DNA of 34,683 nt from a virus. The first letter of the stretch is position 1. Every line of letters starts with the position of its first letter. A model generated the notes under the pieces. The model was not told the origin of the DNA, did not search any database, and was given only the letters and a program-made list of their open reading frames with translations. Positions 4,365 to 18,399 of this stretch are shown in pieces. The translations under genes and the position numbers were made by a program. The DNA lies in the IMG/VR virus record IMGVR_UViG_3300023238_000252, positions 1 through 34,683 of that record. One strand, given 5' to 3'.

Positions 4365-4766
4365 TTATGACTTGGGGTAATATATTGAACAGCCGTTTTC
4401 GCCATCTTCAGCGACATCTATCTCTACAAAGCGGCAGGGGTACTTTGCGGAAATTTCTTCGTACAAGTCATCTGCAATCATCTCACATGACTTGTGATTC
4501 AGTTGTATTACATCCTGTGCGTACAACCGTTCCATCCAGCGTTTAAACTGAATGAATTCTATGTCGCGATCGTTGTGAAACACTTCGATGCGAACTTTAA
4601 AGTGGAAAATATGACGATGAGGAATGCCGAGGAATGATACATCGTCCCACTCGCCTGTTGCTAATTTCGGGTCTGTGTCTGCACCCGGATACATATGCAC
4701 CCCCTCTTTAGAGAACGTGACCCAGATACTACGATCTGCTTTATTCATTGCGTTTTCTGTTGCCAT
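4365..4766 (-). CDS. queD: QueD/PTPS-like 6-carboxytetrahydropterin synthase
   Basis: 133 residues with a divergent 6-pyruvoyl-tetrahydropterin synthase pattern: a first zinc-type histidine (H24 in GVHMYPG), the HRHIFHF block (H50, H52, H55), a middle RDIEFIQFKRWM segment, LNHKSCEMIADDLYEEI (H91, C94) matching the usual LDH...T-x-EN region, and the C-terminal VEIDVAEDGENG strand with its glutamate. In the 7-deazaguanine pathway this enzyme acts between FolE and QueE, both encoded downstream. The start at 4766 is chosen because a consensus promoter would begin transcription at about 4829, leaving the upstream ATG at 4829 without a leader, while the ATG at 4766 has an AAGGAAGA stretch upstream. 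The unusual cysteine placement means the exact reaction is inferred. Confidence 0.72.
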   Translation of the reverse strand: MATENAMNKADRSIWVTFSKEGVHMYPGADTDPKLATGEWDDVSFLGIPHRHIFHFKVRIEVFHNDRDIEFIQFKRWMERLYAQDVIQLNHKSCEMIADDLYEEISAKYPCRFVEIDVAEDGENGCSIYYPKS

Positions 4767-4835
4767 TTTTGCGTCTTCTTCCTTCATTCTGCGTCCCATA
4801 TAATTATGATACGATTCGTGTTGTGTCATAGTATT

Positions 4836-4864
4836 ATTATACTTTCTTTAGTTAGTGTTGTCAA
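4836..4864 (-). promoter_or_regulatory. Consensus sigma70 promoter of queD
   Basis: On the minus strand TTGACA (4864-4859) and TATAAT (4841-4836) are both perfect consensus with an exact 17-base spacer. The predicted start of transcription is at about 4829. The -35 box and part of the spacer are also the last codons of the upstream GIY-YIG gene. The leader shares a 14-base block, TATCATAATTATAT apart from one preceding base, with the leader of the small gene at 5571-5753. Confidence 0.9.
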
Positions 4865-5525
4865 GTGTTTTTTTTGAACAGTTGTCAAAATGCCATCTTT
4901 TCATAGGACTATTGCCACCTGTTTTACCACAGTGCGGGCAAGTTACAGTATCTTGTGCAATACCTTTTAGAGCATCTGAACGTTTTTGATTAGATACAGG
5001 ATCTTGTGTTTTACCCTGCTTTGCTTTAGAAATCTTTAGTTTAGTTGCTTCACTATGATGCTTACCTTCCATACCAGATTTTACAGAACCATATCGTTCA
5101 ATCTTTGTCTGAATAATCTTTCGTTTAGTTTCTTCGCTTAACACTTTACCTGTATGTGCTTCAGATAGACGCTGTCTGTGTTCTTTTGATTTCGTTTTGC
5201 CTTTATGCGAAGGAGGACGACAGTCTGTGAGTATATTCATAAGTATTCCAGACTCGTCAATACGCCTACCATACTTTGCAATAAGTGTTTCTTCTAAAGT
5301 GTAAGCAGATTCTTCGTCCATATCTTTCTGTATGATTTCAATAGCAGGTATTAAACCGTTGTCAAGTATACTTTTGATTTTCATATCCTTCATATGATTA
5401 TCTGTAGAACGACCATTCTTTACAGCACGGAGATGATCCAAATGCCTTTTGTTGTCCCACTTACCTTTACCTATATAAAACGGTTCCATTGTTTCTGGGT
5501 CTTTATAGCAATAAACATAATACAT
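4848..5525 (-). CDS. GIY-YIG homing endonuclease with NUMOD3 DNA-binding repeats
   Basis: Free-standing Seg-like homing endonuclease, about 225 residues. The catalytic domain begins MYYVYCYKDP and continues FYIGKGKWDNKRHLDH, giving the GIY/YIG strands plus the conserved R and H of the family. Two or three NUMOD3-type repeats follow (KGKTKSKEHRQRLSEAHTGK and MEGKHHSEATKLKISKAKQG), then a C-terminal C-x2-C...H-x4-C zinc-like motif (CPHCGKTGG, RWHFDNC). A TTG start at 5540 is also possible. It sits between two genes that share homologous 5' regions, and its stop codon lies within the queD promoter spacer, so the element appears to have inserted without destroying queD expression. Confidence 0.9.
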   Translation of the reverse strand: MYYVYCYKDPETMEPFYIGKGKWDNKRHLDHLRAVKNGRSTDNHMKDMKIKSILDNGLIPAIEIIQKDMDEESAYTLEETLIAKYGRRIDESGILMNILTDCRPPSHKGKTKSKEHRQRLSEAHTGKVLSEETKRKIIQTKIERYGSVKSGMEGKHHSEATKLKISKAKQGKTQDPVSNQKRSDALKGIAQDTVTCPHCGKTGGNSPMKRWHFDNCSKKTLDNTN

Positions 5526-5570
5526 ATGTTTATTTAGCAAAACTTACCCTTATTATTCTAAAACTGACTC

Positions 5571-5753
5571 TTATAATCCTAAACCTGCAAGGAATGCTCG
5601 TAGCTTCTTACCTGTATCGTGTTCGTCGCCTTCACGATAACCATCTTCCATATAACGAAGAAACTCTTGATGCGTCATACCTGTGTCCTGCACTTTCTTG
5701 CCGTCGTATTCTTTACGAAAGGTTACCCAGACACTTCTGCTTGCTTCTGTCAT
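5571..5753 (-). CDS. Small orphan protein with QueD-like N-terminus
   Basis: 60 residues from the ATG at 5753. The N-terminal RSVWVTFRKE matches RSIWVTFSKEG at the start of the nearby QueD-like protein, but the rest (GMTHQEFLRYMEDGYREGDE and on) is unrelated and has none of the QueD zinc histidines. A longer start at 5807 would coincide with the predicted transcription start and is less likely. Together with the shared promoter and leader layout, this points to an ancestral duplication of a 5' gene region followed by replacement of the 3' part. Function unknown. Confidence 0.6.
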   Translation of the reverse strand: MTEASRSVWVTFRKEYDGKKVQDTGMTHQEFLRYMEDGYREGDEHDTGKKLRAFLAGLGL

Positions 5754-5812
5754 AGTTCTTTCTTCTTTCAGTTTTCGGGAAATATAATTATGATAACGTT
5801 CTTGCATGTTAA

Positions 5813-5850
5813 TACTATAACACTAATCAATGACTTTGTCAAGTCCATAA
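5813..5850 (-). promoter_or_regulatory. Sigma70 promoter of the small orphan gene
   Basis: On the minus strand TTGACA followed by 17 bases and TATAGT lies at about 5842-5814, at the 3' end of the gene at 5823-6350. Only one base differs from consensus. Transcription would start at about the 5807 ATG, so translation is expected from the ATG at 5753. The downstream leader carries the same CGT(T)ATCATAATTATAT block seen in the queD leader. Confidence 0.8.
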
Positions 5851-6350
5851 TCTTTCCAATCAGTATAAACTTTACGATCCATTAAATTATGAACACTGTG
5901 GCACCATATCCCGCTATTTGTGTCACCCCATGTGTTGTCATCTAATTTAAGAGTCGCATTATAATTAAACTGTTTAATATATGGAAGTTTGACACTAATC
6001 ATACTAATAAATGTGTTATACTCGTCGTATCCTGATTCTAACACACCGTGACTATATTCAACACCAAAATCAAGTGTACACCAATAACCTTCTTTTAGTA
6101 ATGGGAGAATCATATCATCCCACGCTTTCCAGTCGTCGGAATCTTCTGGAAAGTTTAATCCAGGAGTAAAGCTCTGACTAGTCCCGAAGTATAAGTGTTT
6201 AATGCCATGCTCATCAGCACGTTTCTTAATTTCATCCGCAGGCTGTATACCTACAACAAACAGAGTTTGTTCACCATACATTGCAGTATGTTCAACTTCT
6301 GTTCCGATAAAGTATATTACATTTTGTCTTTCGTCGGTATTTAATCCCAT
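5823..6350 (-). CDS. Unknown protein, paralogue of the gene at 8097-8546
   Basis: 175 residues, soluble, no named domain recognised. The first ~115 residues align with the product of 8097-8546: VIYFIGTEVEHT / IIFFTGVEVEKT, TLFVVGIQPADEI / TLFVTGVQPCDVI, HLYFGTSQSFTPGLNFPED / HIFFGANHSFNPGTNFPED, and LESGYDEY / LESGLIEY. Here the family carries its full-length C-terminus (SVKLPYIKQFNYNATLKLDD onward), so this copy is probably the ancestral form. The start overlaps the dehydrogenase gene by 10 bases, making it the last gene of the clamp-to-dehydrogenase operon. Position between the dpdA and queD genes is suggestive, but no function follows from that. Confidence 0.72.
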   Translation of the reverse strand: MGLNTDERQNVIYFIGTEVEHTAMYGEQTLFVVGIQPADEIKKRADEHGIKHLYFGTSQSFTPGLNFPEDSDDWKAWDDMILPLLKEGYWCTLDFGVEYSHGVLESGYDEYNTFISMISVKLPYIKQFNYNATLKLDDNTWGDTNSGIWCHSVHNLMDRKVYTDWKDYGLDKVID

Positions 6351-7240
6351 TTTATATAGCCTCTGCTGTAGTTGTCGGGTCTGTTTAAGCCATCTTCAAA
6401 AGCTTGTTGCCATTCTGTAGTTCTTGAATAACCTTTAGTCCAAAAGTCATCGATATCTACTTGATTGTTAGTAATCATACTCTCTGCAAGTTCCATTGAC
6501 TTAATAAAGCAATCTGCTCGCGGACTAGGAAATACAATAGTGCAAGCCTTCCAAAGTAAGTTACCAAAGTCTGATGTTAATTGTTTTTGCACTCCTAGTA
6601 TTAGCAATGCTTCGTTATTAAACGCTACATCATCCAATATATTAGTTCTACTACTCAGATCAATAACAACATCGTAAGCGCCGCTATACGACTGTTTTAG
6701 CGTGTCTCCCCACAGGTGTTTGTTATAACTGCCAACAACATCAACTGTTTCAAACGTAAGCCCAAATCTTTCAAGACTGTTATAAGCAATCCACGCTAAA
6801 AATCCACTTCCTAAAATTAAACACCTTTTATTAGGACCGACTCTAGTTTTAATAGCATCCAACGGTTGCATTACTACATTAATACCACACGCAACAGGCT
6901 CCAGTATATATTTTGGATCTGCACTAGGAACAACTACAAATTCATTGTGTCTACAGTTGTAGTAGTCTGCATAAGCAGGCTCACCTCGGGTAGCTACAAT
7001 GTCGCCAACCTTAACATTTTTAATCAACTCGCCAACTTGTGTAACTTCTCCTAGACCTTCGTGGCCTTGCATTTCTTTAGGAAGTGGACCAAAGTTGCCT
7101 ACCATCATTTCTATATCACTGCGGCATACACCTGTCATTAGTGCTTTAACTTCTATCTCATCAGACTTGTGTGCAGGCTTAGACCATTCGATTTCCTCGA
7201 AGCTACCTTTGCCGTCTGTATATAATAATTTAACTTTCAT
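6341..7240 (-). CDS. Zinc-type alcohol dehydrogenase family (MDR) oxidoreductase
   Basis: 299 residues from the ATG at 7240, which overlaps the stop of the upstream MocA-like gene as ATGA. The GroES-like N-terminal domain shows TGVCRSDIEMM (C39, D42) and GHEGLGEVTQVG (H60, E61), the catalytic zinc residues of medium-chain dehydrogenases. The Rossmann domain begins near CLILGSGFLAWIAY. The four-cysteine structural zinc lobe is absent and the protein is about 40-50 residues shorter than bacterial members. Such enzymes oxidise or reduce alcohols, polyols or sugar derivatives with NAD(P). Coupling to a MocA-family enzyme suggests two steps in one sugar-like pathway (inference). Confidence 0.82.
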   Translation of the reverse strand: MKVKLLYTDGKGSFEEIEWSKPAHKSDEIEVKALMTGVCRSDIEMMVGNFGPLPKEMQGHEGLGEVTQVGELIKNVKVGDIVATRGEPAYADYYNCRHNEFVVVPSADPKYILEPVACGINVVMQPLDAIKTRVGPNKRCLILGSGFLAWIAYNSLERFGLTFETVDVVGSYNKHLWGDTLKQSYSGAYDVVIDLSSRTNILDDVAFNNEALLILGVQKQLTSDFGNLLWKACTIVFPSPRADCFIKSMELAESMITNNQVDIDDFWTKGYSRTTEWQQAFEDGLNRPDNYSRGYIKWD

Positions 7241-8100
7241 AGTGCCTCGATCTGTTTGTGAATCCAAATATCTTGTCTTACTTGTTGCTGCCAAAAATTA
7301 TCATTGTCCACGTTATCAATCGCATCCTTTATCATATTATGATATGCTTCTTCAGGACACCATCCTAGTTCTATTGTAGTATCATTAATAGTAACACAAC
7401 TTTCTTCTGTTGTCAAGTCTCTCCAGTTTGCATGCACCCGCCACCTTTCACCAAACGACATTTCAACTTTATCGTCTACATCGTATGTTCCGTTGTAGTT
7501 AATAGTGCCGTAATCTGTACTATCGATGTTCTGCAAAGTCCATTGCTGTTCGCTAGTTTTCTTAGTAGCAGATGTGCTATACCAATACGGATTTAACGCA
7601 ATGTAAAGGCTTAATAAGTGAGGCACTAGGTCTCTGCTAACTCCACCGTATGCGAGTTCTTTAGTAGTAAACCAACTGCCAGGATGCGGAATACAATTCT
7701 TTCTAATCCACTTAATATCAATGCTATTTGATTGCGCTGCGAGAGTTTGCATTTCACCGATGTTATCTCTCCACATATTATTCTTTACCATCATAATACG
7801 TGTGTCAGGATATTGACTTAATATGTCTATCCATTCTTTAGAGTTCTTAAATCCTGGCTTTTCTACAAATACAATTTTACTATATGGCGCAACCTGTTGT
7901 GTAAGTTGTGCATGAGTAAAATTAGGTGTGCATATGTTTACAGTATCGAAAAAGCCATGCGCCACTAAAGCATCTTCTACTCTTGAAAAGTCTGCGTTCT
8001 TATCTGGGTTAGTATCAACAGTTATAACTTCAGCGTCTAATTGTGTTAAGACGCTTTTATAAAGCTCACCAATGCCCATTCCTATTATAAGACTTTTCAT
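7237..8100 (-). CDS. Gfo/Idh/MocA-family NAD(P)-dependent oxidoreductase
   Basis: 287 residues. The N-terminal Rossmann fold is marked by SLIIGMGIGELYKSVL, followed by VNICTPNFTHAQL and IVFVEKPGF (the conserved NxCTPN-x-xH and EKP motifs of the family). YGGVSRDLVPHLLSLY corresponds to the GG-x-x-x-D-x-x-x-H substrate loop. The family usually acts on sugars and inositols at C-OH groups. It overlaps the unknown paralogue upstream by four bases and the zinc dehydrogenase downstream by four, so the three are translated together. Together with the epimerase and glycosyltransferase it could build or alter a nucleotide-linked sugar, but the substrate is not visible. Confidence 0.83.
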   Translation of the reverse strand: MKSLIIGMGIGELYKSVLTQLDAEVITVDTNPDKNADFSRVEDALVAHGFFDTVNICTPNFTHAQLTQQVAPYSKIVFVEKPGFKNSKEWIDILSQYPDTRIMMVKNNMWRDNIGEMQTLAAQSNSIDIKWIRKNCIPHPGSWFTTKELAYGGVSRDLVPHLLSLYIALNPYWYSTSATKKTSEQQWTLQNIDSTDYGTINYNGTYDVDDKVEMSFGERWRVHANWRDLTTEESCVTINDTTIELGWCPEEAYHNMIKDAIDNVDNDNFWQQQVRQDIWIHKQIEAL

Positions 8101-8546
8101 TCTAAACCTTTTTGTACTAAGTATGCATTAATACGATGCATTTCGTCTTTTAGATAAAGTTTCATAGTTTTCATTCTACGAACTTCGTCGGTTACATATA
8201 AGTTATCATATTCAATTAGTCCTGATTCTAAAAATGCTTCTGCAAGTGTAATAGGAATATCTAAACTACAAATTTTACCTGCTGTTAAGAATGCCTTGAT
8301 CATATTCTCCCAAGGCGTCCATTGATCCGCATCTTCTGGAAAGTTTGTACCGGGATTAAAACTGTGATTGGCACCAAAGAAGATGTGTCCGCACTGTTCT
8401 TGGTCATAATGCTTTTGTATAACATCACAAGGTTGTACGCCTGTAACAAACAACGTCTTCATTCCAAATGCAGGAGTTTTTTCAACTTCTACACCTGTAA
8501 AAAAGATGATGTCGTTTGCTTCGCCTGTGTTGTAATCACGTTTCAT
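8097..8546 (-). CDS. Chimeric unknown protein: paralogue N-part fused to DUF465 tail
   Basis: 149 residues from the ATG at 8546 (GGAG six bases upstream). Residues 1 to ~115 are a paralogue of the protein at 5823-6350. Residues 117-149 (from YVTDEVRRMKTM to IQ/VQKGLE) match the C-terminus of the DUF465-like protein at 9144-9353 at 30 of 33 positions. The switch comes right after LESGLIEY, where the other paralogue continues with an unrelated sequence. DNA of the shared tail is also nearly identical, so the fusion is recent relative to the paralogue split. The reading frame is intact and overlaps the next gene as ATGA, which suggests a functional product. No activity can be assigned. Confidence 0.75.
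   Translation of the reverse strand: MKRDYNTGEANDIIFFTGVEVEKTPAFGMKTLFVTGVQPCDVIQKHYDQEQCGHIFFGANHSFNPGTNFPEDADQWTPWENMIKAFLTAGKICSLDIPITLAEAFLESGLIEYDNLYVTDEVRRMKTMKLYLKDEMHRINAYLVQKGLE
8134..8183. repeat. Direct repeat copy A (DUF465 tail coding)
   Basis: This 50-base segment matches 9181-9230 in the same orientation with a single mismatch, and weaker similarity extends about 30 bases to each side. It encodes the last part of the chimeric protein at 8097-8546. The two copies bracket the nuclease gene and most of the chimeric gene. Confidence 0.9.
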
Positions 8547-8547
8547 C

Positions 8548-9144
8548 TTACGCTCCAAACTCAAAAAGTCGGTTGTTTGTATTAGTTGAAACTTTTTTTA
8601 TATGTTCCATTGCACCTGGTGTAATACGATACTGATATTGTCCGCGTTCTTGTTTTTCAAAATAGCTCCAGTGATCATCACCTCGAATATATTTAGGCTT
8701 ATGCTCATGCTCTACTAGAGCATAATTGTCAAGTACTGCCTGACCGTACTCCCATGCTGCTTTAAGTTTAGATTGTATTTCGTTACATGTAAAATCATAA
8801 ACTTTTGCTTCAGTGACTACGTTGTCACCAGTAAGAATGTTCTCGTCATATTCAACACGGTATTGCCGTTGGATCTTATCTCTAATATTGCTATATTCCC
8901 AAGGAGTATTTATAATGTCAGCTGACAGCATTGCGCCTACTGTATGACCACTTGTACTACTCCGCAACCGACTTTTTATTTCAAGTCCATACTTGGGAAG
9001 ATCTATACCTTTTCCTCGATTAACTTTGTAACCTTTATCTTCAAGATCGTCTTCGATCCACCTTCCGATGTTGCCATGATCTTGCGTCATCGGAATAACT
9101 GTTCCGGGGATTATTGCACTATTAAGTGATATTACTTTTACCAT
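8548..9144 (-). CDS. PD-(D/E)XK-like nuclease candidate
   Basis: 198 residues. The segment GKGIDLPKYGLEIKSR gives D48, E55 and K57, the D-x(n)-E-x-K pattern of PD-(D/E)XK nucleases, preceded by a helix with E31 (GRWIEDDLEDKGYKV) that would complete the site, and followed by SSTSGHTVGAM as in some restriction-type enzymes. It overlaps the DUF465 gene by one base (TAATG type) and lies two genes downstream of dpdA. The C-terminus, NRLFEFGA, resembles the clamp-binding tail of gp43 (TSLFDFGE here). A role in cutting unmodified host DNA, or repair and recombination at the fork, fits the context but is inference. The fold call rests on motif reading only. Confidence 0.6.
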   Translation of the reverse strand: MVKVISLNSAIIPGTVIPMTQDHGNIGRWIEDDLEDKGYKVNRGKGIDLPKYGLEIKSRLRSSTSGHTVGAMLSADIINTPWEYSNIRDKIQRQYRVEYDENILTGDNVVTEAKVYDFTCNEIQSKLKAAWEYGQAVLDNYALVEHEHKPKYIRGDDHWSYFEKQERGQYQYRITPGAMEHIKKVSTNTNNRLFEFGA

Positions 9145-9353
9145 TATTCCAGTCCTTTTTGTATTAGATAACTATTAATTCGATGCATTTCGTCTTTTAA
9201 ATAAAGTTTCATAGTTTTCATTCTACGAACCTCCTCAGTTACGTATGCATTATTATACAACGATTCTATCTCTTCGTCAAGCTCTCTGTGCTTACGCTTT
9301 AATTCGTCGTAGTGTGCGCGGAGTTTATCTTCGACTTCATCATAGTTGCTCAT
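9144..9353 (-). CDS. DUF465/YdcH-like small coiled-coil protein
   Basis: 69 residues, nearly all helix. The pattern HYDELKRKHRELDEEIESLY, then EVRRMKTMKLYLKDEMHRI, is the two-helix antiparallel coiled coil typical of DUF465 (YdcH) proteins, whose function is not established. It overlaps the end of dpdA by 14 bases and the nuclease start by one, so it belongs to the same operon. Its C-terminal 33 residues have a near-identical copy at the end of the gene at 8097-8546. Confidence 0.75.
   Translation of the reverse strand: MSNYDEVEDKLRAHYDELKRKHRELDEEIESLYNNAYVTEEVRRMKTMKLYLKDEMHRINSYLIQKGLE
9181..9230. repeat. Direct repeat copy B (DUF465 tail coding)
   Basis: Partner of 8134-8183: 49 of 50 positions are identical in direct orientation. 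It lies within the DUF465-like gene and is the probable source copy, because here the sequence is part of a complete two-helix domain. Confidence 0.9.
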
Positions 9354-10878
9354 CCTGGAGTTCCTCTAATTTAGTTTCATCTAAAGTTTCTTGATCTTCG
9401 ACTTCTTCAGGCTCTTCTATATCAAACAATGCATTAAAGTGTGTACTAGAGTTCACAGACTTCTTACCTACTGCACCGCGTGTGCCAGGAATCTGCATCC
9501 ATAACCTACTATTGTCTTCGACTATCTTGTTTGCTTCTTCTCTAGTAGTAGCAGCAAAAACAGCATCAATAACATCGCCAACAAATAGTTGCTCATGCTT
9601 TTCATTTACTAACATTGAAGGAACTTTGCCTGCATCGTATTGACGATTTGCTTCTTGCACAGAGTTTAAATGCATCCATACATTATGTGCCATTAAGATT
9701 GCATAGCTAAAGCTATCCCAGGAAGTTTTGCCTTCCTTACCGATCCTGTTTAGATCACCTGGTGCATAAATGCAAACATCTTTTACAGTAGTATGTTCCA
9801 TTACAGGACTAGTAGCAAAGTTTTTGTGAATACCATCTTGTACTACTGCATCCTTAAATAATCTAGTATCTTGCGAATACTTTTTGTCATCCATTGCTGC
9901 TGCCATTCGATAAGACCATTTGCCACGATCTTCGATTTCAGTCTCAGTATAAACTTGACCATTTGCAGTTGCAAGGAAAGGACTAGCACAATCAAAGCTA
10001 ACAGTAAACTTAGGATTATGATACTTGCGTACAGCACGTTGAATGTCAGTTAACACTAATGCCCACTCTAATTTACTAGTACCTAAGAAGTGCATCCAGT
10101 CATGTAAGCCTTCTTCCAATAATCCGTCAAAGCGCAATGCAACTAGACGTTTTAGAACTAAGTGGACATCACACATGTTTTGTCCGCCCATTCCCCAACC
10201 ATTAAAATGATTGTCTGGATATATGGCAGGGTCGCAATACTTCTTCATACGATCATACCAATCGTCTGCGTCAGTATGATTCTCGCCTTGTAGCACATTT
10301 AAGAATTTGCAGTTGCCATTACGATTGTTAATAAAATAATCATTATTAATTTCTGTAGCTCGACATGCTTCTTCGTATGTGCTAATTCCTGTAGCTTTTT
10401 GACCTTCTGGACTACGAGCAACCCATGCTGGAATATCTAAACACATTCCATAATCCATTAAAGCATCCATCCAAGTTAAAACTTGCTTACGCTTTTTCAT
10501 TGCAGCAGGACAATTCGGATCTTTCCAATCGCCGGGCCACTTGCCTTTACCAATCTGGAAACCGCCTGAATCGCCTAGTACAAAACTTTTGCCATCACGT
10601 GGACGAGTTCTAAACATTTCTTCTCGGTCATCTTGTTTGTTCAAGTCGAGATTAGCATGTCCTGCAGAGTACAAGCACCACTTGTAATATAACAGTGGGC
10701 TTGTAGGATCTAAGTAATTAATACTTTCTACATCATTTGTAAAGTTTGTAGGCAATCTGGATGGTTCGATGTACGGGAATCGTTTTCTTTGATACCCGAT
10801 AAATGCGGAGTAAAAACCAGATGTTGCTGGTAAAAACAAGGCATAATCTTTTTGTGTTGCTGTTAAGTCTGTATTCAT
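9340..10878 (-). CDS. dpdA: DpdA-like DNA-guanine transglycosylase (TGT family)
   Basis: About 512 residues from the ATG at 10878, preceded by CGGAGAGC; an alternative ATG at 10899 lies one base after the gp45 stop. TGT-fold hallmarks are visible: FVLGDSGGFQIGKG with the preQ-base aspartate (DSGGFQ, ~103-108), LNVLQGE (~193-199), GWGMGGQ (~227-233), HFLGTSK (~263-269) and VSFDCASPF, whose aspartate (~D296) matches the catalytic nucleophile of transglycosylases. The cysteine-rich zinc site of tRNA enzymes is not apparent. DpdA enzymes exchange guanine in DNA for a 7-deazaguanine and so protect phage DNA from restriction (established for the family). With folE, queD and queE in the same window this is the most likely role. 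The acidic C-terminus is an extension. Confidence 0.8.
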   Translation of the reverse strand: MNTDLTATQKDYALFLPATSGFYSAFIGYQRKRFPYIEPSRLPTNFTNDVESINYLDPTSPLLYYKWCLYSAGHANLDLNKQDDREEMFRTRPRDGKSFVLGDSGGFQIGKGKWPGDWKDPNCPAAMKKRKQVLTWMDALMDYGMCLDIPAWVARSPEGQKATGISTYEEACRATEINNDYFINNRNGNCKFLNVLQGENHTDADDWYDRMKKYCDPAIYPDNHFNGWGMGGQNMCDVHLVLKRLVALRFDGLLEEGLHDWMHFLGTSKLEWALVLTDIQRAVRKYHNPKFTVSFDCASPFLATANGQVYTETEIEDRGKWSYRMAAAMDDKKYSQDTRLFKDAVVQDGIHKNFATSPVMEHTTVKDVCIYAPGDLNRIGKEGKTSWDSFSYAILMAHNVWMHLNSVQEANRQYDAGKVPSMLVNEKHEQLFVGDVIDAVFAATTREEANKIVEDNSRLWMQIPGTRGAVGKKSVNSSTHFNALFDIEEPEEVEDQETLDETKLEELQDEQL

Positions 10879-10900
10879 GCTCTCCGCCGGTCCATCCATA

Positions 10901-11644
10901 TTACTTGCTCTGCGCTGGTAGAATATAATCGTATGTTGCCATACCTGAATCAACTGCAATCTTCATTGCACCTTGATCGCTAATGCTCATAGTAATATCA
11001 CCGCTCAGATTCAAAACAGCTTGTACTGCTGCTACGGGCCAACTCCAAGTATGCTGCAATGTACCTGCTACTGCATTTTGGAATACAAACTCGCCTGCGT
11101 GTGTACTTGCATCGCCGAAGCTAAACACTAAGTCACTTACACCAGCAGTTGCTTTGGTAGTAACATTAAATGTAGGCTCTTCGGTATGTGCCGCACTCAT
11201 TAACTTCATACGTCCGATACTAGCAACACTTGGCTTAAATTCTACAGCCCATGCAGCACCTTTAAATGTAACATTTTTTAACTTCTCTTCGATAATTGCT
11301 TTGTTCATAAAGCGATAATCATTTTCAAAGTCACCTGCGTTGTTTTCAAAGTGAATATGCGTTGGCATAGTTTCGCCATTACGTTCTGCTGTAATTACAT
11401 CAATCTTAGCATCTTTCTGATACTCGGGATTTTTCAAATGCAATGCAAGTTTGTCTAAGTTAGGCATACCAAATGTGCCAACAAACTCAGTAACTGGTGT
11501 GTGGGTAGTTGCAGATAAGATAACACTCCTATCCTCTGCCATTGAATTAACACTAGTAGTACCATCTTCCGATGTGACTTTGACTAGTGGTAGGAAACCT
11601 AGTGCATGTGTGTGTGCTACTACGTCTTGTAAGATATCTTTCAT
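10901..11644 (-). CDS. 45: Sliding clamp, gp45-like
   Basis: 247 residues, close to T4 gp45 (228). The segment FVGTFGMPNLDKLALHLKNP, then IHFENNAGDFENDYRFMNK, and the C-terminal MKIAVDSGMATYDYILPA are the kind of blocks found in divergent T4-type clamps. As a trimer it would tether gp43 to DNA and couple late transcription to replication. It is the first gene of a long operon with its own strong promoter and is followed after one base (or 22) by dpdA, so the clamp and the base-modifying enzyme are co-expressed. The assignment relies on remembered family patterns, with no invariant active site to verify. Confidence 0.78.
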   Translation of the reverse strand: MKDILQDVVAHTHALGFLPLVKVTSEDGTTSVNSMAEDRSVILSATTHTPVTEFVGTFGMPNLDKLALHLKNPEYQKDAKIDVITAERNGETMPTHIHFENNAGDFENDYRFMNKAIIEEKLKNVTFKGAAWAVEFKPSVASIGRMKLMSAAHTEEPTFNVTTKATAGVSDLVFSFGDASTHAGEFVFQNAVAGTLQHTWSWPVAAVQAVLNLSGDITMSISDQGAMKIAVDSGMATYDYILPAQSK

Positions 11645-12396
11645 ACTGTTTCTCCATTGAATAAGTTTATTATAACGCCTTTTTTGGCCTTTGTCAAGTC
11701 TTTCTTTACTGAGTATTTAGGTTCGTACCCAAGTGCTTTCATTTTTTCTAAGTTAGCACAAGTATAAAAACGCTCTCCCGGGGTATTTAGACGTACTGGA
11801 ACATCAGTTGCTAAATCCTGGATCTTTACAGGAACTCCAGATCCAATATCAAGTACACCTTTAACGTAATCACATTCTATTAAAATATTAATAGCATCAA
11901 TCACATCAAGTAAGTGTACAAAATCTCTGTAGTGTCTAGTAACATATTCTAGTTCACCGTTAAATAGTTTATCAAAGAACATACCTTTACGCGGAGTATG
12001 AGACCATACTGTATGAAATCTCATTCCTAGTGTATTAGGATAACGTTCTGCAAGTTCTTCTAGCACATACTTAGACGCTGCGTAAGGGTTCAAATCGGGC
12101 TCGTAAGCACTCGAACTGCTCGCGTACAGTATACGTGTGTTTTGATAACGCTCAAACAAGCGCCTGCTTGCTTCGATGTTATTCATCCAGTATGCTGCTG
12201 GATCCTTAATGCTTTCTCTTACACCCGACCGTCCTGCTAAGTGTATAATTAAGTCAAAGTCTTTATTTGGAAAGTCACAAGTTAGTAAGTCATTTCCTTC
12301 CACTAAATCAATACCTGTAACAGTATGATTAAGTTTAAGTGCTCTTAATAGACTAGAGCCTATAAAGCCTCTATGTCCTGTTAGTAGTATATTCAC
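11641..12396 (-). CDS. NAD-dependent sugar epimerase/dehydratase (SDR family)
   Basis: 251 residues beginning with GTG (12396), whose GTGA overlaps the stop of the upstream frame. The extended-SDR cofactor loop is GHRGFIG (7-13), ILYASSSSAYE supplies the catalytic serine region, and Y105-AAS-K109 is the catalytic YxxxK. FVHLLDVIDAI is the usual downstream block. Related enzymes act on UDP-, GDP- or dTDP-sugars. It is shorter than typical bacterial members (about 310), mainly in the C-terminal substrate domain, so substrate is unclear. The last 25 codons double as the gp45 promoter and ribosome site. Confidence 0.87.
   Translation of the reverse strand: MNILLTGHRGFIGSSLLRALKLNHTVTGIDLVEGNDLLTCDFPNKDFDLIIHLAGRSGVRESIKDPAAYWMNNIEASRRLFERYQNTRILYASSSSAYEPDLNPYAASKYVLEELAERYPNTLGMRFHTVWSHTPRKGMFFDKLFNGELEYVTRHYRDFVHLLDVIDAINILIECDYVKGVLDIGSGVPVKIQDLATDVPVRLNTPGERFYTCANLEKMKALGYEPKYSVKKDLTKAKKGVIINLFNGETV
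11669..11697 (-). promoter_or_regulatory. Consensus sigma70 promoter of gp45, inside epimerase CDS
   Basis: TTGACA (11697-11692), 17 bases, TATAAT (11674-11669) on the minus strand, both perfect consensus. The whole promoter lies in the last codons of the epimerase gene (Leu-Thr-Lys-Ala-Lys-Lys...Ile-Asn-Leu), so the DNA is both coding and promoter. The gp45 ribosome site GGAGAAACAG follows. Confidence 0.9.
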
Positions 12397-12733: not shown

Positions 12734-13735
12734 TTACTCTCCAAAGTCAAACAAACTAGTAAATGTGTTATGACGCTTAGTATCCTCTAATGGATAGTTA
12801 AGCACACCAATTAAGTTGTCTAACTTATTATCAATAATAGTTTCCGCCATCGCTGCATCATCAAACGGAAGTTCTTTGAACCATTCCGGCAAACGCATTT
12901 GATCTGTCGGATACGCTACGCTTGTATAGCCTAATGGATTAGGTTTTAGTTTGCAAACAATAACTTTCATACCGTCTACAACTTCTTCAGAATACTTGTC
13001 GCCGTTCATTCGACGTAGTGTATTCCAGTTAATACTTGCTCGAACGTGTCCGGGCATGTTAGCTTTACCTTGCTTCTCTTCTAAGCGGCGATAGTGTCCA
13101 ACTTTGTTTGCACGTTTAGGTGAACCTTTCTCCCAACCCGGGCGCTCATGGAACTGTTGACGGAACTCTGTAATACGCTCAAGTACATCAGTACGCGGCT
13201 TATCAGTAAGTACCATAAGTAATAGCTCGCTTAGAAACTCCTGCATAAACACAGGTGTATCCGACCTACGTAAGTCTAAGCCCATTGCTTTTACTTTACC
13301 AACTTTACCGTCAATGTCTGTTCTAAAGCCTTCGTTGTCAACTACTAATGCTGCATAACGCTTCTTAGTAATATACAAGCCCGACTGTGCAACAATCTCG
13401 CGTCCTGCTGCAATAACAGTTGCACGACTCTTTGGACAATGATGCGACTTTGCCATCATCTCAGTAAACGTACCATCAACTGCGCCACATATCTGATCAT
13501 ACAATGTAATTGCTTTATCAGTATCCCATTCGATCTTACCTGATTCGATATCATTTTGTAAAGTAGGCCAAGCACTAAAGTAGACCGAATCTGTGTTATG
13601 AACCAAATGTCCATTTGCAAAGAAAAACGGATCGTCTTCGGCAATGCTTATATCATATACGTACTGGTCGCCTGTGTTTGGTATCTTTTCTACGCTTGCT
13701 ACTCGTTGTCTTATTACTTCAGCCATGTTATGCAC
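12734..13735 (-). CDS. 43B: DNA polymerase gp43 C-terminal part with split-intein C-half
   Basis: 333 residues. The first 44-47 (from MAEV at 13726 or ATG 13735 to FFFANGHLVHN, ending at 13595) are a C-terminal split-intein half with the terminal His-Asn. The next residue is Thr (+1), and the polymerase continues TDSVYFSAWPTL, the second half of motif C (YGDTDS) with a catalytic Asp. Then come KKRYAALV (the conserved KKRY template-contacting motif), thumb sequence and a C-terminal TSLFDFGE resembling the gp43 clamp-binding tail. The extein part is 286 residues; with the partner (602) the spliced enzyme would be 888, close to T4 gp43 (898). The start overlaps the end of the endonuclease gene by 22 bases. 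Confidence 0.92.
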   Translation of the reverse strand: MHNMAEVIRQRVASVEKIPNTGDQYVYDISIAEDDPFFFANGHLVHNTDSVYFSAWPTLQNDIESGKIEWDTDKAITLYDQICGAVDGTFTEMMAKSHHCPKSRATVIAAGREIVAQSGLYITKKRYAALVVDNEGFRTDIDGKVGKVKAMGLDLRRSDTPVFMQEFLSELLLMVLTDKPRTDVLERITEFRQQFHERPGWEKGSPKRANKVGHYRRLEEKQGKANMPGHVRASINWNTLRRMNGDKYSEEVVDGMKVIVCKLKPNPLGYTSVAYPTDQMRLPEWFKELPFDDAAMAETIIDNKLDNLIGVLNYPLEDTKRHNTFTSLFDFGE

Positions 13736-14658
13736 CTTTGAATTATTGTTTTAGGATCAGCCAAATACTCTGACTCCCATATGATTAGTGTGTCTATGTT
13801 ACGCTTATCTTTTAATGCTTGAATCTTCTTTGCATCTTTTTCCCATACGTGTCTTGCTAATAACTCAGATTGTGGATGATACCAGTTTTCAGCGTATTTG
13901 TTAGGATTGCAATGCCAGTAGTCGCCATTAAATTCTATTGCTTTGTCATTGTGTACAATGTCATAAAAGTTTGGCTTGTCATTTGCCCAAATGCAATATT
14001 GTTTCGTTTTGTAATAATAGCGCAATTCTTCTTCCAGTGCAGACATTATTTCATCAGCAAACTGCTTTTCTAAATTACTTGAATATTTTTCTGACTGTTT
14101 ATAATTAGCAATTATATCTAGTGCTACTGCTTCATCACAGTTGTTTCTTTCCATTACTACATCTAGTGAGTGTGACTTTATTCTACACACTTCATTGTAC
14201 ATGTCTGTACCAGTTGTAGTACCAAACTTTTCTATGAAATATTCTTTTGTGTTTGTGTATGCCTGTCTATCGCAATATGATTGCCATTTAATAGCACCTG
14301 TCACTTCACCGTGCCGTTCTATTAAGTTTTTTAATGTAACAGCTCTTGATTTATTATATTCATCAAAGTCGGCTTCGATCCATCCATGTTTCTCTTGTTT
14401 GTATTGCAGCGTATTAGAATACGCTTGTTTTCTTTTATAATCATCCCATGCAGCTTGACCCTGCACTGTTCCGTATTTCTTTTGCATATTAACTAGTGTG
14501 CAGGCTGTTGACTTAGCAACCTCATCGTCTACTAGTTTAGCATGGGGATATGCGATTTTGTATTCTTTACCGTTCTTAAACTTTCCAGTACATTTATAAA
14601 AAAAATGTGTCCACTGTAATCTTTTTGCGACTGTGCCGCACTCTATACATTTTGGCAT
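13714..14658 (-). CDS. Vsr-like homing endonuclease inserted between gp43 halves
   Basis: 314 residues. The N-terminus has a Cys pair (CIEC, 4-7). Three repeats of ~50 residues follow, each with G-x-x-x-G...W-x-x-Y...QAYSNT-type features (about 62-83, 116-137, 145-165), probably for DNA recognition. The C-terminal nuclease has PNFYDIVHNDKAIEFNGDYW (D233, E242) followed by HCNPNKY and a final IIWESEY strand, the pattern of Vsr/EDxHD-like homing enzymes reported with split inteins in environmental phage-like sequences. It lies exactly between the two intein halves and overlaps the downstream polymerase gene. Its likely job is to spread the intein cassette into intein-free gp43 alleles. Confidence 0.85.
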   Translation of the reverse strand: MPKCIECGTVAKRLQWTHFFYKCTGKFKNGKEYKIAYPHAKLVDDEVAKSTACTLVNMQKKYGTVQGQAAWDDYKRKQAYSNTLQYKQEKHGWIEADFDEYNKSRAVTLKNLIERHGEVTGAIKWQSYCDRQAYTNTKEYFIEKFGTTTGTDMYNEVCRIKSHSLDVVMERNNCDEAVALDIIANYKQSEKYSSNLEKQFADEIMSALEEELRYYYKTKQYCIWANDKPNFYDIVHNDKAIEFNGDYWHCNPNKYAENWYHPQSELLARHVWEKDAKKIQALKDKRNIDTLIIWESEYLADPKTIIQRCITWLK

Positions 14659-14723
14659 GACTATGGTGATACTCCTATCGTTGTATGCTTGCTATACTTA
14701 TTTAACATCATAGTCAAAAAACC

Positions 14724-16889
14724 CTACTTAGCAAGAGTAATAACTAAATCATTTTCTTGTAAATCTGTTGCCTTTATTTCCAGTAAGAACCCATCTCGGT
14801 CTATCATTAAACTGTGATCTTCTGTTACTGTAACCGACGTTCCGTCTTCCATTGTTACCTTGTATAATTGCTTAGAAGTTTTATGACGCATAACATAGTT
14901 CATTTTAGAAATAGTAATTTTATCATTTAATGCATGGAATCCAAGTGTTGTAATGTCCGAGTCGTTAAACATTGCATATTCCTTTCCACTAGGATGTAAT
15001 ACTTTATCCTCAACTGCATCAAACAAATCTTCAATTGCAATCATGCCATTTGATGTGTTAATCATCGAATCACCGGTAACGCTATCACCATAGATAACAG
15101 CATCACCTACGTGATCGTATACACCTGTAATAACTTTGTTTGCTTCTGCACTCATGTGCTTAACAATTGTGCGTCCTGTAAGTGTAGTACTCTGTCCAAT
15201 ACGCTTGTCAAAGAATCTACATCCTGGATTAAGAATAGCACCATACAAACTGTTCAAGTTAATCTTCTTAACCAACTGTCGCTTATCCCAATACTCAGTT
15301 TCAACAGCATTGCCTGCGTCTTTAGCTTTCTTAAGATGCGCCTGCAATTCTTTACGTTCACTGTACCAACGCTTTAGAATACCTGGAATAACACCTTCAA
15401 ACTCTGTAGTAAAGATAGTACCATTAGCACTAAGCATCCAAGGTTGATTGCTGTCAAATACTAATTGATAAATCTCTGCACCACTTAGTACATCACTGCG
15501 TCCATCTTCCCAGTCAATTGTAAGCGCAATAGCCTTGCTCTGGTCCATAACTGCTTCGTATTCTTCTGTAGCAAAGCGTCCTTCCCAGCTACCAGCAAAG
15601 CTTTTCTTCTTTAAGAACATGTCTTCATGTACTCGAGCGTCACTAATATCCGGACGTATCTGTCCTATAACAGTTTCAGGAGCCATATTTAATGCACGAA
15701 TCACACTAGGATATAGCGAATTCAAATCCATTGAACATATCCACTTGTGCAAGCCTTTTTTAGGATACGCAACGTATGCACCAGCAGCTTGTGTAGCTTC
15801 CTCATCGCGCTTTTTACGATTAGGTACTTGTAAGCCTCTGTGCCATGCTTCGTTAACGATAGCTTGCTCTGTAACAGCTACAGCACCCATTGTAGTTTGT
15901 AGAAGCACTGTGTTGCTGTGTGCTAGTTCGTTGCTTAGATCAATAAAGCGGAGCTTCTTATCCAACTTGTCAAGTAGTGCAGTATCCTGAATGTTATATT
16001 GAATAAACTTGCGGAAGTCGTTGTTGTAAAGTGCGTCAAGTGTACCTTCGTACTGCGTCTTATTTTCACCTACTTCAATTTCACCAATAGCATCTAGTCG
16101 ATATGTGTGACGTTCTTCATAAGTGTACTTACGGTATAAGTTCAAACTATCTAAGTGTACACGCCCGACTAAGTCAAACGTTTCACTTTCTTTGCCAAAC
16201 TTTTCGTACATACGCTTCTTAGGAAGTTGTCCCCACAAGCAGAATCTACGTGTGTCATCTTTGCTTAATACCCTTGCAGTCCTGTTTACAGTATATGGAA
16301 TATCATATCCTTCACTGTTCCAACCACTAAGTACGTCACTGTCTTCAATTAGTGTTAAGAAAGTATCGATCATGTCGCCTTCTTTCTCAAACAACATTAC
16401 ATTGTCAATGCCTTCTAGTTCTTTACGTGCTTGCTCCATAGTAAGTGTCTTAGGAGGAACAGCAATACACACCATTGTGTCTAACCACTGCAAGTATACC
16501 GAGATACTTGTAATAGGCATAAACGGATCACTAGGATCAGCAAAGCCTTTCTCTGGATCAAAGTCAGTTTCGATGTCGAAAAACGCAATGTTTAGTTTAG
16601 GTGCATCTTGGTTAAGATAGTTTTCACTTAAACACTGAAAGATAGGATTAATATCACTCTCAAACAGTTCTTTGTCTCTGTTAATGGCTACTTCTTTGCG
16701 GAAGTCTTTTGTGCTTTTGCACACAATACGACTCAGCGGATCACCGTACACACTTTTGTACTTGCCCTTTTGGTCTTTATAATAAAATGTATATTTTACA
16801 GGGTATTCGCGGAAAGTTCTCTTCCCGTCTTTGCGTTCAACTGCCCGAATAATATCGGCGTCTCGGTCGAACAGTGCGTCAACATACAT
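14724..16889 (-). CDS. 43A: DNA polymerase gp43 N-terminal part with split-intein N-half
   Basis: 721 residues. The family-B polymerase part (1-602) shows Exo I FFDIETD, Exo II GWNSEGYDIPY, Exo III YNIQDTALLD, motif A MDLNSLYPSVIR, motif B KKINLNSLYGAI, and ends at VIYGD, the first half of motif C. The next residue is Ser at 15083, starting a 119-residue intein N-half: block A (SVTGDSMINTSNG), block B with T-x-x-H (SVTVTEDHSLMI), ending at a stop codon. Alone it lacks the second catalytic aspartate and thumb, so it needs trans-splicing with the product of 12734-13735. Ribosome site AAGGAAA precedes the start. Confidence 0.94.
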   Translation of the reverse strand: MYVDALFDRDADIIRAVERKDGKRTFREYPVKYTFYYKDQKGKYKSVYGDPLSRIVCKSTKDFRKEVAINRDKELFESDINPIFQCLSENYLNQDAPKLNIAFFDIETDFDPEKGFADPSDPFMPITSISVYLQWLDTMVCIAVPPKTLTMEQARKELEGIDNVMLFEKEGDMIDTFLTLIEDSDVLSGWNSEGYDIPYTVNRTARVLSKDDTRRFCLWGQLPKKRMYEKFGKESETFDLVGRVHLDSLNLYRKYTYEERHTYRLDAIGEIEVGENKTQYEGTLDALYNNDFRKFIQYNIQDTALLDKLDKKLRFIDLSNELAHSNTVLLQTTMGAVAVTEQAIVNEAWHRGLQVPNRKKRDEEATQAAGAYVAYPKKGLHKWICSMDLNSLYPSVIRALNMAPETVIGQIRPDISDARVHEDMFLKKKSFAGSWEGRFATEEYEAVMDQSKAIALTIDWEDGRSDVLSGAEIYQLVFDSNQPWMLSANGTIFTTEFEGVIPGILKRWYSERKELQAHLKKAKDAGNAVETEYWDKRQLVKKINLNSLYGAILNPGCRFFDKRIGQSTTLTGRTIVKHMSAEANKVITGVYDHVGDAVIYGDSVTGDSMINTSNGMIAIEDLFDAVEDKVLHPSGKEYAMFNDSDITTLGFHALNDKITISKMNYVMRHKTSKQLYKVTMEDGTSVTVTEDHSLMIDRDGFLLEIKATDLQENDLVITLAK

Positions 16890-16956: not shown

Positions 16957-17700
16957 ATGTCTAATAAACAATCTATTGCTCAAAGAAAAAGATTTTCTAA
17001 TTCTGTAAATCATAGAAAAAACAATTGGATTTGTGAATCTAATAAGATTCACAACGACAAATATGATTATACTAAAGTTGAATATAATAGTCAACTTACA
17101 AAAGTTGAAATAATTTGTCCATTTCACGGCAGTTTTTTTCAAAGACCTTGCGATCATAAAAATCAAAAACAAGGGTGTCCTAAGTGCTCTCATAATTTTC
17201 CTCTAACTAAGGAAGACTTTATAAACAGAAGTAAATCTCTATATAAAGAAAAATATAAGTTATTAAGCAGCTTTAAAGGAACAAAACAACCTGTAACTTT
17301 ATCATGCTCTGTCCACGGAGAATTTAAGTTAAAGTCTGCCCAACAGCACTTTAGTAAAAACGGCGGCTGTCCGACATGCTGGTATGAACTACGTTTAGAA
17401 AATCTTAAGCCCGGTAATATTTCCAAAAAAGAAACAGAATGGTTAGATTTATTAAATATTCCGTTAAGACAGGAGAAAATAATCATAGAAAACAACACTT
17501 ATCTTGTTGACGGGTTTGATCCCGAATCAAATACTGTTTACGAGTATTATGGTTCATTTTGGCACGGAAATCCTGAAAAATATAATTCAGACGATGTAAA
17601 TACCGTACTAAACAAAACATTCGGCGAGTTGTATCAAAAGACCTTAGACAGAGAATCTGTAATAAAAAAACATTATAATGTAATTTCTGTTTGGGGGTAA
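16957..17700 (+). CDS. Second Vsr-like homing endonuclease with zinc-finger repeats
   Basis: 247 residues on the opposite strand to gp43. Two repeated modules of ~60 residues (HNDKYDYTKVEYNSQLTKVE...CPFHGSF...GCPKC and YKEKYKLLSSFKGTKQPVTL...CSVHGEF...GCPTC) each end in C-P-x-C and resemble DNA-binding modules found in phage endonucleases. The C-terminal nuclease has LVDGFDPESNTVYEYYGSFW then HGNPEKY and a final VISVWG strand, parallel to the D...E...WHCNP pattern of the endonuclease between the gp43 halves. It sits just upstream of gp43. It is more AT-rich than its neighbours by eye, consistent with a mobile origin. The target is unknown. Confidence 0.8.
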   Translation: MSNKQSIAQRKRFSNSVNHRKNNWICESNKIHNDKYDYTKVEYNSQLTKVEIICPFHGSFFQRPCDHKNQKQGCPKCSHNFPLTKEDFINRSKSLYKEKYKLLSSFKGTKQPVTLSCSVHGEFKLKSAQQHFSKNGGCPTCWYELRLENLKPGNISKKETEWLDLLNIPLRQEKIIIENNTYLVDGFDPESNTVYEYYGSFWHGNPEKYNSDDVNTVLNKTFGELYQKTLDRESVIKKHYNVISVWG

Positions 17701-18370: not shown

Positions 18371-18399
18371 ATTATAGCGCACATCGTGAAAAAAGTCAA
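18371..18399 (-). promoter_or_regulatory. Sigma70 promoter of dsbA
   Basis: TTGACT (18399-18394), 17 bases, TATAAT (18376-18371) on the minus strand; one mismatch to consensus. The -35 box lies in the 3' arm of the terminator-like hairpin at 18392-18415, so the end of one transcript and the start of the next share the same bases. Confidence 0.85.

Follow-up and report, generated by a model that had tools for sequence, protein, structure and literature searches.

How did a nuclease gene come to lie between two copies of one gene tail, the second of which closes a chimeric reading frame? The question is raised by the window, the whole stretch of 34,683 nt analysed here, which is an uncultured T4-like virus. 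A repeat search of the window identified two direct repeats of 112 nt (83 % identity, spacing 1,047), and no other repeat in the window comes close to this length. The following features lie at this locus:

8099–8210, minus strand: direct repeat, right copy (repeat search)
9146–9257, minus strand: direct repeat, left copy (repeat search)
8097–8546, minus strand: chimeric gene, 149 aa (sequence comparison with relatives)
8548–9144, minus strand: MutH/Sau3AI-like PD-(D/E)XK nuclease, 198 aa (predicted structure and conserved residues)
9144–9353, minus strand: DUF465-like gene, left copy, 69 aa, a hybrid in which nt 1–46 (9308–9353) are resident and the rest is an imported allele (Pfam DUF465, E 3.8e-10)

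The initial annotation had described the gene at 8097–8546 as the front of a paralogue joined to a DUF465-like tail, and this description holds. Residues 1–~116, the front of a phage gene family here termed HEAD that normally measures 172–180 aa, are paralogous to the product of 5823–6350 (43 % over 117 residues), while the last 33 residues match the upstream DUF465-like protein at 30 positions, with 49 of 50 bases identical in the core. The upstream product scores 40.1 bits against the DUF465 profile (PF04325), above the curated cut-off of 25 bits; residues 120–139 of the chimera give only a weak match below it (E 9e-4, 19.6 bits).

That the repeats bracket a nuclease gene was also correctly recognized, and the model of its product is of the MutH type. 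The AlphaFold2 model, built from a 12-sequence alignment, has a pLDDT of 88.7; MutH was ranked first by Foldseek (E 2.6e-7), followed by Sau3AI, and VIA-align gave Z 15.6 for MutH (rmsd 3.1–3.2 over 178–179 residues) and Z 12.6 for Sau3AI. Residues E31, D48, E55 and K57, which form the D...ExK motif plus an upstream E, are invariant in the 12 sequences. By fold and motif the product is a MutH/Sau3AI-like nuclease, its activity being predicted. GATC avoidance in the window, sought as a sign of specificity, gave no signal (observed/expected 1.04), a value that is uninformative as to GATC-specific cleavage. The nuclease had no match among isolate phages, and for both HEAD and the nuclease, comparison with PHROGs and NCBIfam and PDB sequence searches with their profiles yielded nothing credible.

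The structure of the locus before the insertion is revealed by L081, a near-identical relative (98–99 %) found by searching with the downstream oxidoreductase. It is colinear with the window (98.8 % over 12400–9146 and 98.1 % over 8189–5709), lacks the insert and carries a single DUF465 gene directly before three genes, GFO, ADH and PARA. The same empty-site order occurs at lower identity in L083–L086 and L089, and DUF465 and GFO are direct neighbours in six distinct cases among the relatives. These empty-site relatives support the earlier interpretation of the locus as the recombination footprint of a cassette insertion. The resident downstream genes are:

7237–8100, minus strand: GFO/IDH/MocA-type oxidoreductase (GFO), resident (PF01408; 99 % amino acid identity to L081, in which it directly follows DUF465)
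6341–7240, minus strand: ADH_N (GroES-like) dehydrogenase (ADH), resident (PF08240; 99 % amino acid identity to L081)
5823–6350, minus strand: PARA, the full-length paralogue of the chimera's front, resident (97 % amino acid identity to L081; 43 % to the chimera)

Comparison with L081 also separates the origins of the two tails. There are no mismatches over 9308–9576 and only 2/800 over 7297–8096, whereas the left DUF465 copy departs from L081 at 9307, with 0/46 mismatches in nt 1–46, 11/82 in nt 47–128 and 13/82 in nt 129–210. The chimera tail differs from the L081 DUF465 gene at 0/81 positions, versus 12/81 between L081 and the tail of the window's upstream copy (Fisher p=0.0003), and the left and right tails differ from each other by a dN of 0.086 and a dS of 1.03. 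A dS of about 1.0 marks them as old alleles that come from different phages, and together with the mismatch counts this identifies the chimera tail as the resident DUF465 end rather than a copy. The proposal that it arose by duplication of the local DUF465 tail is thus not supported, and the direction is the reverse of that envisaged: the chimera holds the resident end, while the upstream gene holds the imported one. Old shared ancestry of the tails, which the initial annotation had itself opposed to a local copy event, is in spirit what was found. The DUF465 alleles are themselves mosaic, because the first 120 nt of the left copy are nearly identical to L071; among isolate phages DUF465 had no match.

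Between these boundaries lies an imported tract, composed of a different DUF465 3' end, the nuclease gene, a truncated PARA relative and a short DUF465 stretch:

8178–9307, no strand assigned: imported tract of about 1,130 bp, present in place of about 82 nt of the resident DUF465 (sharp identity changes at both edges versus L081)
8200–8546, minus strand: HEAD front part, first ~116 residues, native C-terminus missing (84–87 % DNA identity to L008, L010, L012 and others)
8178–8199, minus strand: short stretch of a DUF465-like allele distinct from both L081 and the left copy (versus L081, 6/21 mismatches in 8179–8199 and one more at 8178)
8097–8177, minus strand: resident DUF465 3' end, now the chimera's tail (81/81 identical to L081 DUF465)

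The join to HEAD lies between TATGATAACTT and ATATG; HEAD sequence continues up to GAATATGATAACTT (8200) and is followed by ATATGTAACCGACGAAGTTCG, which resembles a DUF465 allele and is equal to none sampled. In-register alignment of HEAD TATGATAAC with DUF465 TATAATAAT gives 7/9 identities, which suggests that the two were joined by short-homology exchange. Because the 8178–8199 stretch differs from the resident allele, the incoming DNA probably already ended in DUF465 sequence, and the final exchange would have used the conserved DUF465 core. Among the relatives, the HEAD/DUF465 fusion occurs only in the window and in the identical contig L001, the sole match in a scan for the exact join. 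The two are identical over 10,447 bp and possibly derive from common source reads; the join is seen in one haplotype. No donor carrying the join was found among the relatives, and the imported tract has no high-identity match in any one phage (87 % for HEAD and 84 % for the nuclease, at different loci).

The type of donor can be recognized from the surroundings of HEAD elsewhere. With the chimera product as query, 80 IMG/VR loci were recovered, in which the usual order is EPI, a conserved gene of 240–248 aa, a TGT-like gene, DUF465 and HEAD (172–180 aa). In L010, L012, L013, L021, L022, L059, L208–L210 and L212–L214, the nuclease is flanked by DUF465 and a full-length HEAD, and no tail is duplicated, so that its presence is independent of the duplication; the nuclease of the L208–L214 group has 84 % DNA identity. 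Nuclease homologues at 26–31 % directly follow PARA in other phages, so the nuclease and HEAD/PARA tend to travel together. This linkage is recurrent, distant MutH-like homologues being found directly after PARA in L117–L121, L145, L152, L185–L190, L206 and L243–L245.

Distinct HEAD proteins share the conserved C-terminus NPGVWCHSLHDLMDR..FTDW..YG.DK, a related form of which is present in PARA. The chimera's HEAD is without this conserved C-terminus of ~60 residues, which is kept in distinct relatives of the chimera front, L018 ending at its contig end, and the chimera is probably non-functional in the role of HEAD. The omega of the HEAD front is about 0.10 (L007 and L028, which were out of register, were ignored in the calculation), indicating no relaxed selection and mostly reflecting the time before truncation. 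Fold comparison of HEAD gave no convincing match (best Z 5.8). Among isolate phages, HEAD and the TGT-like protein have ~34–42 % identity to PA5oct-like Pseudomonas jumbo phages. The window's own TGT-like gene (9340–10959) encodes a very divergent TGT/DpdA-like protein with no family hit, containing a DSGGFQ motif that we take to be of the TGT/DpdA-like kind; with GTP cyclohydrolase I (FolE) encoded at 946–1629, it is suggestive of deazaguanine metabolism.

The reading that best accommodates these comparisons, to which we assign a probability of about 0.87, is that an L081-like phage took up ~1.13 kb from a phage of the DUF465–nuclease–HEAD type by recombination inside its resident DUF465 gene. 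The empty-site structure, the donor-type order, the sharp edges and the origin of each tail are established. Against the reading stand the missing donor, the lack of one phage that closely matches the whole tract, the single haplotype and a HEAD front free of relaxed selection. The course of events may be reconstructed as follows. The recipient would have had the order TGT-like gene, DUF465, GFO, ADH, PARA, and the donor, a related phage, the order DUF465, nuclease, HEAD. The HEAD/DUF465 join would have formed in the donor before entry, by short homology at TATRATAAY. Both exchanges would then have occurred inside the resident DUF465, one before nt 47 and the other in the conserved core around nt 129–155, such that the incoming 1.13 kb (the foreign DUF465 3' part with a promoter motif, the nuclease, the HEAD front and a short DUF465 stretch) replaced ~82 nt. 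The recipient would then carry a nuclease gene and a hybrid DUF465 that is still intact, and the displaced tail of the resident DUF465 would close the truncated HEAD in frame. A circle model with strictly one crossover, which would be possible only with a resident DUF465 already containing the L071-like middle part, was set aside.

An alternative, which we consider unlikely, is that the nuclease is of the homing type, cleaved a DUF465/HEAD locus that had no nuclease and entered it as a repair copy, in which case the broken HEAD would mark the edge of a co-conversion tract. The patchy distribution of the nuclease across different backgrounds and its conserved PD-(D/E)XK residues are consistent with such homing, as is a GIY-YIG cassette with similar chimeric edges in the same window, which has a counterpart in L212. 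On the other hand, relatives of MutH and Sau3AI differ from homing enzymes in recognizing a frequent 4-bp site, the window shows no depletion of GATC, and homologues that are placed differently in other phages, yet still beside PARA, suggest functional linkage with the HEAD/PARA family. The GIY-YIG gene (4848–5540) interrupts a gene that L081 has in one piece (6294–6731); the overlap at the SVWVTFRKE core is 34 nt in L081 coordinates:

5571–5807: N-terminal part (~30 residues) of the split gene fused to a foreign stretch (comparison with L081)
4365–4829: foreign N-terminus joined to the resident body (comparison with L081)

L212 has the same arrangement, its GIY-YIG protein being identical apart from the start codon. 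As the edges of this cassette are also gene fragments, the window contains two nuclease cassettes with chimeric gene edges. Further putative endonucleases were observed elsewhere in the window. The DNA polymerase is encoded by two genes (12734–13735 and 14724–16889) that show intein-like halves where they are broken and have a putative endonuclease gene (13714–14658) between them, so that 12734–16889 looks like a polymerase gene fractured by a split intein, and on the opposite strand a frame at 16957–17700 resembles, by eye, a free-standing endonuclease (YYGSFWHGNP motif).

Copying of the window's own DUF465 tail onto the downstream gene, for which the occurrence of both tails in one genome, the 49/50 core and the direct repeats would speak, is very improbable, given that the chimera tail matches L081 at 91/93 positions and the local copy at only 79/93, that dS between the local copies is about 1, against a difference of only 1–2 % between the flanks and L081, and that nearly all DUF465 genes have the conserved core in any case. 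Equally improbable is that two phages were fused at the DUF465 repeat during assembly: these are metagenomic contigs and related phages may coexist in a sample, but HEAD and DUF465 share only about 11–14 nt at the join, too short for assembler merging, the same join occurs in L001, a contig of different length, and the frame stays open across it. Excision of the nuclease, also envisaged in the initial annotation, is mechanically possible across the 49/50 core and would restore the DUF465–GFO order, but the expected product was searched for in IMG/VR and not found; L081 is not such a product, because 11/82 bases before the core differ from the window's left copy.

Unexpectedly, DUF465 also contains a motif inside the gene:

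9252–9280, minus strand: sigma-70-like promoter motif TTGACG-N17-TATAAT in the DUF465 coding sequence (sequence prediction)

Codon comparison shows that the CTT GAC ... TAT AAT codons are kept in DUF465 genes. TTGAC-N-TATAAT is present in 50/68 distinct DUF465 genes, 49 of them with a spacer of 17, and synonymous recoding with the phages' own codon usage gave 1.3 expected occurrences of TTGAC-17-TATAAT against 49/67 observed. The two strongest synonymous conservation scores in DUF465 belong to the codons for Leu25 and Asn34, and those for Tyr33 and Asp26 likewise rank near the top, all scores being inflated by shared ancestry. Over all loci fetched to that point, which are redundant, the strict motif occurred 400 times on the coding strand and twice on the other. 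It is also found in the EPI 3' end (43/49 versus 0.7 expected) and, in a less strict version, where HEAD/PARA ends. The window contains five strict motifs versus 0.15 expected; the others (11669–11697, 4836–4864, 17066–17094 and 18371–18399) likewise all lie on the minus strand, and two of them, at 11669 and 4836, immediately precede the start of a gene.

The window has the DUF465 motif in the left copy, upstream of the nuclease, the chimera and GFO–ADH–PARA; the right DUF465 copy starts only beyond the motif, and the HEAD 3' motif has disappeared together with the C-terminus. Judged from sequence, the DUF465, EPI and HEAD/PARA motifs may be working promoters, and the one internal to DUF465 may drive the downstream cargo. 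We tentatively propose, as a possibility on the doubtful side, that DUF465 and a few neighbours act as promoter-bearing exchange hubs. Cassettes (nucleases, oxidoreductases) that recombine into the conserved coding core would be expressed at once, since this core shares the 3' part of one small gene with a host-like promoter; nuclease cassettes would do so recurrently, leaving chimeric gene fragments at their edges. If real, a promoter in coding sequence would explain the unrelated cargo directly after DUF465 in many uncultured phages and offer a simple, testable form of module exchange in which the guiding promoter lies outside intergenic elements.

The insertion event is ordinary phage mosaicism, well resolved, in that the acquisition of a nuclease cassette can be traced base by base, including the resident end, the imported end and what was broken; the interest lies in the exchange point with its predicted promoter. 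With MutH and Sau3AI the phage protein shares the predicted fold and the E31/D48/ExK (E55, K57) residues, but this putative enzyme is phage-encoded and stand-alone. Free-standing phage homing endonucleases of the T4 seg/mob type spread by intronless homing, and the present case resembles them in having a nuclease gene between conserved genes, patchy in relatives, with edges in neighbouring genes; the window nuclease, however, has a predicted MutH/Sau3AI fold, not that of a homing family.

Promoter-early stem-loop elements (PeSLs) are associated with modular shuffling in T4-type phages (Arbiol 2010 and Comeau 2014, via PMC4503421 and PMC3950731). As PeSLs are described in the latter two papers, both systems involve a T4-related phage, a host-like (sigma-70) promoter motif at a module border (predicted in the window), variable cargo between conserved genes, and exchange through recombination at border sequences that are repeated or conserved. 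The window motif differs from PeSLs in lying inside the DUF465 reading frame (and in the EPI and HEAD/PARA 3' ends) rather than between genes, and a simple consensus scan of the coding strand over 9144–9353 found no terminator-like site or stem-loop near it. Since it has neither the stem-loop nor the intergenic place, the window case resembles a PeSL in its possible working without being a member, and, judged from those two papers, PeSL-mediated shuffling is the nearest described mechanism.
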